Shown piece after piece: positions 34,721-64,000 of a DNA stretch of 64,000 nt; position 1 is the first letter of the stretch; the number at the start of each line of letters is the position of its first letter. The translations under genes and the position numbers were made by a program. Origin of the DNA: Bacilli bacterium (GTDB taxonomy: Bacteria > Bacillota_I > Bacilli_A > RF39 > UBA660); assembly GCA_017409025.1 (NCBI GenBank), contig JAFQTN010000004.1, forward strand, positions 1 to 64,000. Direction: 5' to 3'. Under the pieces are notes generated by a model. The model worked only from the letters and a program-made list of their open reading frames with translations, was not told where the DNA came from and ran no database searches.

Positions 34721-34734
34721 ATATTTAGTTTTTG

Positions 34735-34950
34735 AAAAGCGATAGGTAGAAGTAGTAATAAAATAAGAATTTTTAGAGAGAATATGGTTGGTGAAAATAT
34801 TCAAGGAAGATTTTATGAACTTGTTTACTTAGCTGATATTATCCGCAGAAATGCGTTAAAATTAGAGTGTATAACAATAGTTATAAAGTAAGGTGGTACC
34901 GCGATAATTCGTCCTTATATTTATGACTATTTTTAATTTATGGGAGGAAT
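34735..34950 (+). promoter_or_regulatory. T-box leader of leuS
   Basis: The conserved T-box AAGGTGGTACCGCG ends at 34903 and lies in an antiterminator-type fold (GTAAGG pairing with CCTTAT). Stem I contains GGTTGGTGAAAA and a specifier loop with GAACTTG; CTT (34820-34822) fits leucine. T-boxes sense uncharged tRNA and raise expression of the downstream synthetase gene. No terminator hairpin with U tract follows the T-box. Instead ATTCGTCC (34907-34914), usually the 5' arm of the terminator, can pair at seven of eight positions with GGAGGAAT (34943-34950), the leuS Shine-Dalgarno. Confidence 0.85.
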
Positions 34951-60771: not shown

Positions 60772-60800
60772 AAAAGATAAAAAAATTTTATCTTTTTTTA
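60771..60800. terminator. Bidirectional terminator
   Basis: AAAAAGATAAAA/TTTTATCTTTTT hairpin with an AAA loop between convergent genes. Confidence 0.8.
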
Positions 60801-62674
60801 TTTTCGTTAGTTTCTGTTAAATAATTATCTCTAGTTTCATTGGGGTCATATGAATAAGGGAATGCTTTTTCTTCGATTTTTTCATTAATAGATTTTATTT
60901 TATCTTTTAATTCTTTTAATTCTTCTTCATTATGTTTATTGATTTCTCTTTTAGTATTAATAGCTGCTTCTAGTGTAGTAGATTTATCTATTTTTTGATT
61001 AGATAATGGAAGTATATATGAAGCATATTCGGTTAGAAAGTTACATAGTATATCCTCTAATTCTTTTAGAGTAATATCTGATTTATCAAATTTTTCTTCG
61101 TACTTTTGGTATAGTTCTAGATATTTATTATAATCTAATTCATAAAGAATTTTCATGATTTGATCGTAGGTATCATTATATGCACCAATTATTTTATCTT
61201 TTTCTTTGATTTTAAATGATTTTTTTATTAATCTATTTAGATGAAAATTTAATTTTTTGATGAATTCTTCAATATTATGAAAATCTAATAGTAGATCTTC
61301 AGTTGTTAGTGTTTCTAATCTAAATGCTTCTTTTTTTCTGTCAAAGGACATTGCAGAATTATTATATAAATCATTATCCATATCATTATCCCATGTTGGG
61401 TCTGCTACAAAAATACCATGAATATTATATTTATCATCATCAATTTTAACAATATTTCTAGCGTGGGATTCTATTTCTGTTGGTTTATCTTCTTTGCTAA
61501 AACCATCATCATATGATATATCTACACCTACTGAAATTTTTCTGCACGGGATACCTACTTTTGCTAATAAAATATTTAGTAATTTAGCATAGCCTACACA
61601 TACCATATATTCATTATTTAGAATATATCTTATATTTCTAGATTGTTCTTTATCTTCTTTATTTTCTTTATAAGGTTTAAATTGTTTAACAATATTATAT
61701 ACAGCTATATATTTTTCGTATGGAGATAGGTTTGATTCTTTAATTGGTTTTATTAATGCTTCTAATTTTTCATCTTCTTTTAAATATTCATCTTTTGAAT
61801 AATCATAAAAATCATTTTCAATAAACAGATTTATATTATTAGTATAATTTAATAAATTACTTTGTTTTAATAATTCACGATTTTCAACTTCTATTTTAAT
61901 GTTATAAGGTCTATTGTGAGTTTCTAATGTTTGAAATATTTTTACTAATTTTTGAAAATATATTTTTTCATTTTTTAAGGAAAATGGTTTATGAATAATT
62001 ATTTTAGCATCTTTATTAATATAGATAAAATTATTTAATTCTTCTTCAGTTATATTAGGACTAATAGTTATTAAATTTGTTGTTTCTAGACTACTGAATG
62101 TGTAGGTTCCTATAGCGTATTTGCTACTTATTTTATTTCCTTCATAACGTATTTCTAAGTGAGAATCTTTTAGTCTTTTTATTTGTTCTTCAGTTAAATT
62201 AATGCCAGTAATTTTAGTTAAGTTAAAATCTATATTTCTAAGTTCTTTAGAATTTATTAAATAATCTATAAAGTCATCATCCATTATATAGTCGGGTATG
62301 TTAATCCATAGATAGTTATTTTTTAGTGCTTCTTCTATTTTTTGTTTTGTTCTTTTTTTTGCTTCTTCTTTAAACTTTTCTATATTTTGATTAAAAAATT
62401 CAGGATTTATTAAAATGATATTTCCAAATTGATTTAAAATAGCAATTGGATGTTCTTTATCGGTGTAGGTTATAGAAATATTGTTTTTATCTGCTACTGG
62501 ATCAAGGATACATTTTTGTTTTTGGTTAGGATATTGTTTGTCATGGATTGTGAAAATAAATTCTTTATTCTTTTCTTCAATAAAGGCTAAAAATTCTTCA
62601 AAAGTAGTTAGGAAAGTACAATTATTTTTTATACCTGAAGACCATAAGTTTATATTTTTAATATTATCGTTCAT
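60788..62674 (-). CDS. Large protein with transglutaminase-like domain
   Basis: A 628-residue soluble protein. Residues 1-310 are mixed alpha/beta without known motifs; 310-430 form a transglutaminase-like core (SPYEKYIAVYNIVKQF, Cys359 in YMVCVGYAKLLN, His404 in ESHARNIVKI, Asp425 in VADPTWDND); the rest is helical. No signal peptide. Promoter on the minus strand: TTACAT (62725-62720), 17 bp, TATAAT (62702-62697). Probably a cytoplasmic peptidase or transferase; substrate unknown. Confidence 0.75.
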   Translation of the reverse strand: MNDNIKNINLWSSGIKNNCTFLTTFEEFLAFIEEKNKEFIFTIHDKQYPNQKQKCILDPVADKNNISITYTDKEHPIAILNQFGNIILINPEFFNQNIEKFKEEAKKRTKQKIEEALKNNYLWINIPDYIMDDDFIDYLINSKELRNIDFNLTKITGINLTEEQIKRLKDSHLEIRYEGNKISSKYAIGTYTFSSLETTNLITISPNITEEELNNFIYINKDAKIIIHKPFSLKNEKIYFQKLVKIFQTLETHNRPYNIKIEVENRELLKQSNLLNYTNNINLFIENDFYDYSKDEYLKEDEKLEALIKPIKESNLSPYEKYIAVYNIVKQFKPYKENKEDKEQSRNIRYILNNEYMVCVGYAKLLNILLAKVGIPCRKISVGVDISYDDGFSKEDKPTEIESHARNIVKIDDDKYNIHGIFVADPTWDNDMDNDLYNNSAMSFDRKKEAFRLETLTTEDLLLDFHNIEEFIKKLNFHLNRLIKKSFKIKEKDKIIGAYNDTYDQIMKILYELDYNKYLELYQKYEEKFDKSDITLKELEDILCNFLTEYASYILPLSNQKIDKSTTLEAAINTKREINKHNEEELKELKDKIKSINEKIEEKAFPYSYDPNETRDNYLTETNENKKR

Positions 62675-62764
62675 ACTATCACCATATTATAGATTAATTA
62701 TATCACGTATAATGTAGATATGTAAATAAATGAACTTGCAAATCATTAATTTACATTTATAATA

Positions 62765-62796
62765 GTTTTAATCATTTTTATAAAAATGATTAAAAC
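62765..62796. repeat. Perfect 32-bp palindrome
   Basis: Two 16-nt arms, GTTTTAATCATTTTTA and its complement, without a loop. It may act as a terminator or mark the left end of the insertion element. Confidence 0.9.
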
Positions 62797-62798
62797 AG

Positions 62799-62960
62799 CG
62801 ATTGAGTTTAGGCGAATTATATCAGGGGTCTAAAGTATCCACATTTATGACGGCCTAGCTCTTTTCTTTTTATTATCCTAGTTTTAGAATGTGAGGGTTA
62901 ATTTGATTAACCTTATATAACAAGCGTGATGAGGAGTATGAGGTACAAAGAGTTCAATCG
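62799..62960 (+). ncRNA. Candidate IS110 bridge RNA
   Basis: A stem CGATTGA (62799-62805)/TCAATCG (62954-62960) encloses about 160 nt, with an inner stem-loop CACATT (62840-62845)/AATGTG (62888-62893) around a 42-nt loop and a hairpin AGGGTTAAT/ATTAACCTT (62894-62914). Position (noncoding left part of an IS110 element) and length match known bridge RNAs, which guide target and donor recognition through two internal loops. Loop assignments cannot be made without element ends. Confidence 0.5.
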
Positions 62961-62982
62961 TAGATAAGAAAGGAAGATGATT

Positions 62983-64000
62983 ATGTGCAATTGTTTGGCT
63001 ATTGACGTGGCTAAATCTAAAAGTATGGTTACTTTAATTAGTTCTTGTGGTGAAGTTCTAATTGATCCATATGAAATTAATCATTCTATTAAAGATTTTT
63101 CTAATTTACTTAATAGAATTAATAAACTTAAATTAGAAAACATTTCTGTAATAATGGAATCTACTGGAGTCTATCATAGACCAATTGAAAGATTTTTTTA
63201 GAACAAAATTTCAAAGTATTTGTTATTAATCCAATTTATGGAAAGATGCATAAAAGAAATATTAGAAAAACTAAAACCGATAAAGAAGATTGTTTTAATT
63301 TAGCTAATTTATTTTTTACAAATACATTTAAGGAATATATTAAACCTGAACAATTATATTTAGATTTAAACGCTTTATCTAGACAGTATTTTGCTTTAGA
63401 TGAGTTATGTGTAAACCTTAAAAACAGATATAGAAATTTGGTTTATTTATGTTTTCCAGAATATGAATTAATATTTAAAAATAATACTATTTATTCAAGC
63501 ATCGCTTTAGATTTTATAGAAAAATATCCACATGCAAATATTATTTCAAATACAAGAATAGATTGTTTACAAAACTTCTTTAAGAAACACAATTTTAAAT
63601 ATTGGAAATCTAAACCAATAATAATAAAGGAATATGCAATTAATTCCTATCCATCAGTTGATATGAATGATGAGTTAGTATCTAATTTATCTCAAATTGC
63701 TAGACTGGTTAACGAATATCAAAAGGCTATAGATATAATAAAATATAAAATTACTTTTTTAGCAAAGAAAACAAAATATTTTGAATCCATTAATTCTATT
63801 TATGGAATTGGAGAATTTACTGCATCAATTATTATAGCTGAACTTGGCGATATTAATAGATTTAATAATATTAAAGAATTAACTGCTTATTGTGGATTAG
63901 ATCCATCTATAAAACAATCAGGTAAATCAGTTGATATACATGGACCTATTTCTAAAGCAGGTAACAAATATATGAGAAAAATACTTTATATTGCCTGTTC
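62983..64000 (+). mobile_element. IS110-family transposase, frame-broken, cut by window end
   Basis: Frame 1 (62983-63201) carries the RuvC-like N-terminus: Asp in CLAIDVAKSKS and Glu in VIMESTGVYH. It hits TAG at 63199-63201 after AGA TTT TTT. Reading on from 63198 in the -1 frame (TTA GAA CAA) restores the protein, which stays open to 64000: DKEDCFNLANLF supplies the remaining acidic residues, then YGIGEFTASIIIAELGD and HGPISKAGNKYMRKILYIAC contain the Tnp_20 domain and its Ser nucleophile. Either a one-base loss in the T7 run inactivated it or slippage restores it. ATG 62983 fits AAAGGAAG. Confidence 0.88.

Follow-up and report, generated by a model that had tools for sequence, protein, structure and literature searches.

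The window analysed here, a stretch of 64,000 nucleotides from a Bacilli bacterium (contig JAFQTN010000004.1 of assembly GCA_017409025.1), ends within an IS110-family element that consists of a noncoding left end (LE), a recombinase gene and a right end (RE). The leader directly upstream of the recombinase gene had been likened to a bridge RNA in an original prediction made from this sequence, and it is this leader, its relatives and their insertion sites that are considered below. Alignment of copies placed the element from 62704 to about C12:64303 (1600 bp; C12 is the contig numbering of the window genome, used for positions beyond the window end), so that 303 nt lie outside the window. While the window genome, a metagenome-assembled genome (MAG) of 1.28 Mb, holds a single copy, a DNA search of 386 same-family genomes retrieved the leader from ~30 genomes, mostly in different genera, and related copies in this bacterial family number about 40 (AT-rich Bacilli/Mycoplasmatota MAGs). 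A contig scan using one protein had returned five loci only; an order-wide protein search yielded additional close and distant relatives, from which regions were extracted with both flanks. Named carriers among these relatives are 'uncultured Bacilli' and Candidatus Faecisoma.

Across copies, the left boundary of the element reads ATTATAnCA/CGTATAAT and the right boundary TTGACAAATCTTAGAATGTCA/ (the slash marking the junction). Orthologous sites lacking the element were found in three congeners (G001, G003 and G005), in which the left and right neighbour genes are adjacent; G001 carries ATTATATCA between these genes, and G003 and G005 carry ATTATAACA. At these empty sites, ATTATAnCA is directly followed by the other flank, which indicates that the element inserted at a core dinucleotide and duplicated no target sequence beyond it; past the core the sequences diverge, and the alignment was anchored by gene order and the motif. 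The empty sites thus support the assigned ends (62704 and ~64303) and a CA core. The LE spans 273 nt (62704-62976), and the RE extends ~140 nt past the stop codon, the long noncoding end being on the left as in the IS110 group; in the IS1111 group, it is located at the right end instead.

The recombinase gene adjoins the leader downstream, as originally described, although in a frameshifted form. The protein of a relative (P0001) matched both Pfam families expected of an IS110-family recombinase, i.e. the DEDD RuvC-like PF01548 (E 5.6e-25) and the Transposase_20 family PF02371 (E 1.8e-20), and the window copy matched PF01548 in two frames. Similarity of the transposase to that of IS621 was detectable and distant (E = 8e-12), in agreement with the earlier placement of this family outside the characterized IS621-like examples.

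A consensus fold was derived from 26 aligned copies and comprises, in order, stem-loop 1 (SL1), stem-loop 2 (SL2), a closing stem, a target-loop stem with a terminal hairpin and a donor-loop domain. In this fold, 93.6% of cells were paired, compared with 39-49% for slid partners, and the covariation score was 0.235, compared with 0.04-0.09, in a comparison where the structure is somewhat favoured over the slid controls because it was derived from the same alignment. Two-sided changes were observed in 28 pairs, a number that none of 500 shuffles reached (mean 13.6), and the stems therefore withstood the covariation check that the original prediction had called for. The 7-bp closing stem (arms CGATTGA, 62799-62805, and TCAATCG, 62954-62960), the large-looped inner stem and the second hairpin that it described were all found in the window sequence. 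Its interval (62799-62960) was shown to enclose the loop-bearing core and to be too short for the whole: the left end of the element lies 95 nt further upstream, and two covarying hairpins (62720-62796) precede the core. The first of these, SL1, contains the invariant alignment columns G19, T20, A22 and A23 and is probably the 5' stem-loop of the RNA. In SL2, the inner 9-pair helix was 98.1% paired, its sequence varying among copies with pairing kept in most. A search of the leader region against Rfam 15 returned no family at gathering score.

Four putative guide segments were located within the two loops, in the same order and strand sense as in IS621, for which a left guide of 8-9 nt (bottom strand), a right guide of 4-7 nt (top strand), a shared core and an RE-LE promoter have been described (PMC11208160). 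The predicted left target guide (LTG) agreed with the flank at 192/210 positions (7 nt left of the core, 30 copies; shuffled 173.6, p<1e-4) and the right target guide (RTG) at 64/90 positions (5 nt right of the core, 18 copies; shuffled 47.1, p<1e-4), the shuffles keeping composition and ignoring the kinship of the copies. A register-free scan covering every well-filled leader column, flank offset and both pairing senses returned precisely the LTG (identity, flank -7 to -1) and the RTG (complement, +1 to +5) as its top hits, the RTG with an excess of 15.8 compared with a null maximum of 11.2. Furthermore, unusual guides were shown to match unusual flanks, as exemplified by TACATAA in copy L079, AGTATAT in L083 and, on the right, TGAGAAT in L061 (7/7). 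Copies collected later also agreed, i.e. L137 with AGTATAC (by reading), and L134 and L121 with 5/5 positions on the right. In genome G316, two elements coexist whose guides differ, L079 (C75) and L059 (C88). Guide and flank of L079 both read TACATAACA, representing natural retargeting off the −10 box.

In separate lineages, changes in the two donor guides were found to accompany changes in the ends. The left donor guide (LDG) and the RE change from AGAATGT to AGAAAGT in L081-L083 and to AGATTGT in L078, and at the right donor guide (RDG) and the LE, four copies belonging to a single clade have GCATG/CATGT in place of GCGTG/CACGT. The complementarity of loop segments to flanks and ends that was anticipated for a bridge RNA was thus observed for the left target, the right target, the RE and the LE (Table 1).

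Table 1. Positions of the features assigned to the IS110-family element (window numbering unless prefixed C12)
Feature	Position	Strand	Sequence or basis
Left target half plus core	62697..62705	-	ATTATATCA on +, TGATATAAT on -
Core dinucleotide CA, left end	62704..62705	+	flank comparison of copies; empty sites in congeners
LE -10 hexamer TATAAT	62708..62713	+	with RE -35 TTGACA gives TTGACA-N17-TATAAT on the circular junction
SL1 stem-loop	62720..62756	+	14 pairs, 7 with two-sided changes
Second TATAAT inside LE	62758..62763	+	present in most copies
SL2 stem-loop	62765..62796	+	perfect 32-nt AT-rich palindrome; 6 pairs with two-sided changes
Putative bridge RNA core domain, 7-bp closing stem	62799..62960	+	folding and 26-copy alignment
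Predicted LTG, ATTATATCA	62816..62824	+	same as left flank plus core; window 7/7 left of CA
Predicted RTG, ATTTATG	62843..62849	+	pairs with core and right flank
Predicted LDG, TTAGAATGT	62884..62892	+	same as RE end TTAGAATGT-CA
Predicted RDG, GCGTG	62924..62928	+	pairs with LE start CACGT
IS110-family recombinase (DEDD_Tnp_IS110 + Transposase_20)	62977..64000, on to C12:64163	+	frameshifted at T7 63193-63199
Core dinucleotide CA, right end	C12:64302-64303 (outside window)		flank comparison of copies

Promoter elements were identified in and around the element. At the predicted RE-LE junctions of copies with both ends, a −35/−10 pair with a spacer of 17 was present in 20/20 cases, the hexamers being TTGACA/TATAAT in 17/20 and TTGTAA/TATACT in 3/20. 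The second TATAAT within the LE is possibly an internal promoter of the RNA; since it lies just before SL2, candidate 5' ends of the RNA are ~62720 or a position within SL2. The conserved GTAAA arm of SL1 reads TTTAC in the outward direction and is spaced 17-18 nt from the −10 box captured from the host; it is plausible that this TTTAC serves as a replacement −35 for that box, the same bases also building SL1.

A target loop, a donor loop, covarying structure and a junction promoter, i.e. all defining features of a bridge RNA that can be assessed from sequence, were therefore found in this leader. We consider it very likely that the leader represents a bridge RNA encoded by the left end of an IS110-group element that inserts at extended −10 boxes, consistent with the original prediction as far as the RNA is concerned.

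A number of observations weigh against this assignment. Besides the disregard of kinship in the guide-flank shuffles, the scan excess of the LTG (17.6) was barely above 17.4, the highest value among 30 null maxima, and the core-adjacent position n of the left guide agreed in only 17/30 copies (shuffled 9.7). The RTG of the window fits 4/5 right-flank positions, and the RDG-LE pairing amounts to 5 bp only, one of them G-T. Three copies (L135, L142 and L085) have guides that fit their present site poorly, and two others (L054 and L077) retain the leader without the conserved CACGTATAAT left end, which may have been rearranged. Moreover, the window recombinase has a −1 frameshift in a T7 run (63193-63199), where T8 is found in the closest of those relatives whose run is uninterrupted; L077 also has T7. 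Because of this one-base deletion, the window copy is probably inactive, representing either a dead or dying element or an assembly error. Programmed −1 frameshifting at T7 is disfavoured, as relatives keep a single open frame here, carrying either T8 or a T run broken by other bases.

With respect to the target, the ATTATAnCA of the left guide, read on the opposite strand, gives TGnTATAAT, an extended −10 box. In the window, this box is the extended −10 of an outward gene (60788-62674), the ATG of which is located ~22 nt downstream of the box. The motif is retained in relatives with proteins that are 42-50% identical (L146, L147 and L121), and it appears that the left guide of this lineage is held at ATTATAnCA, steering insertion into promoter −10 boxes.

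More distant clades appear to be aimed at Shine-Dalgarno sites. In L152, L153 and L155-L166 (about 30-31% protein identity), left ends lie directly upstream of, and abut, AAGG, GAGG or CAGG Shine-Dalgarno sequences of outward genes; in 12/14 of these, 8-13 nt separate the junction from the outward start codon, and several of their leaders hold a matching guide-like segment (TTCACCTT, ACACCTT or CTCACCTT). In another group (L138-L141 and L143; ~49% identity), the leader contains CAAATTACA and CAAATTG, and the sites read AAATTACA/ATTTG; several of these sites lie directly past a stop codon. For the clade L167-L170, inspection by eye revealed no clear guide match. In the open-access literature searched, no IS110 elements aimed at promoters or −10 boxes were reported, which is weak evidence given the limited search; the new part would be the promoter-box target together with sister clades aiming in parallel at a different signal for gene starts.

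An explanation that accepts the bridge RNA and denies the preference for promoters any function, ATTATAnCA simply being frequent in such genomes, is considered unlikely, even if it retains more credit than the others discussed here. Indeed, TGNTATAAT occurs 23 times per 64 kb compared with 14 expected by chance, a third of the TGnTATAAT sites that hold no insertion are promoter-like as well, and the relatives L138-L141 and L143 use a different motif. However, a Shine-Dalgarno sequence and the start of an open reading frame were present 12-60 nt downstream of 27/37 insertion sites of the clade; the same context was observed for 7/21 of the other TGnTATAAT sites in the window and for 221/5000 (4.4%) random positions. 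Furthermore, this explanation does not sit easily with retention of the motif at 42-50% protein identity or with the proximity of the ~31%-identity clades to a second start signal.

Alternatively, the leader could be nothing more than a structured 5' untranslated region controlling expression of the recombinase, with the matches of the guides arising as by-products of AT-richness. This view is favoured by the AT-rich genome and by the likeness of the left guide to a common promoter box; in addition, the fold of the single window sequence was set aside as too weak to serve as evidence (minimum free energy −39.6 kcal/mol, z = −1.6, with 11/200 shuffles equally good). However, guide-flank agreement exceeded that of composition-keeping shuffles, the register-free scan singled out exactly the geometry of IS621, and in separate lineages the ends and the donor guides shift together, rendering this alternative highly improbable. 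The suggestion that the SL2 palindrome is target DNA, reflecting insertion beside hairpins or terminators, arose from its variable sequence and its conspicuousness among the first three copies compared, and was rejected, with virtually no probability left to it, after ~30 copies had been aligned, as the copies share ~60 conserved nt upstream of SL2 and the palindrome is missing from the empty sites, which join at CA 60 nt further out.

Returning to a bridge RNA that selects −10 boxes, the sequences show the ends and the core of the element, the guides and how they change in concert, the stems, the promoter at the junction and the targets; transcription, loading, recombination and the outward −35 are inferred. 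Excision would abut the two ends, creating a promoter (RE TTGACA, CA, LE TATAAT) from which the RNA would be transcribed. The second loop, with LDG and RDG, would pair with the RE-LE junction of the same element, which serves as the donor. The recombinase would then connect this donor to the target at the CA core, with no target duplication beyond these two bases. A left guide fixed at ATTATAnCA would direct insertion to TGnTATAAT boxes pointing away from the element, while the right guide would drift along with the local upstream sequence. As the −10, the start signal and the coding sequence would all remain with the host gene, and the LE may add a replacement −35, such an insertion would be mild. 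A broader proposal, to which we assign even chances, holds that the guides are programmed to universal gene-start signals (the −10 box here and the Shine-Dalgarno sequence in sister lineages), that the captured promoter is rebuilt from the host −10 and the LE −35, and that the right guide evolves per site.

Programmable recombinases of the IS110 type are known from few examples, mainly in relatives of E. coli. A divergent, AT-rich lineage in which four guides can be mapped by natural variation, whose core is CA and whose RNA has an additional hairpin, may be a source of orthologues that differ in their sequence requirements. A testable question is raised as well, namely how an RNA-guided transposon selects a plentiful and harmless motif, the answer here appearing to be the −10 box (and the Shine-Dalgarno sequence in sister clades). 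If true, guides directed at gene starts would provide many mild sites in any genome, and changes in the right guide would represent natural retargeting. Elsewhere in the window, a T-box leader (RF00230, 101 bits) was found at 34733-34919.

Among known systems, mycobacterial IS900 and its relatives, also members of the IS110 family, insert between the ribosome-binding site and the start codon, similar to L155-L166; they differ from the present element in their host and in a target other than the −10 box. The seekRNA elements ISEc11 and ISEc21 share with it an RNA from the noncoding region with two target-matching segments, a circular intermediate with a promoter and natural retargeting between related elements, whereas ISEc11 is of the IS1111 type and the target of ISEc21 lies inside IS3-family transposase genes rather than in promoters (PMC11187229). 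The likeness to IS621 (PMC11208160, PMC11208158) encompasses an RNA in the left noncoding end, the succession of a 5' stem-loop, a target loop and a donor loop, the lengths and strands of the guides with the core included, and a promoter rebuilt at the RE-LE junction. In contrast, IS621 has a CT core (CA here), an LE of 191 bp (273 nt from core to start codon here) and a recombinase chain of 328 aa (~394 aa here). Furthermore, the covarying AT-rich hairpin SL2 has no obvious counterpart in IS621, the predicted fold of the present leader has an outer stem that closes both loops, and the target of the present element appears to be the extended −10 box of a promoter.
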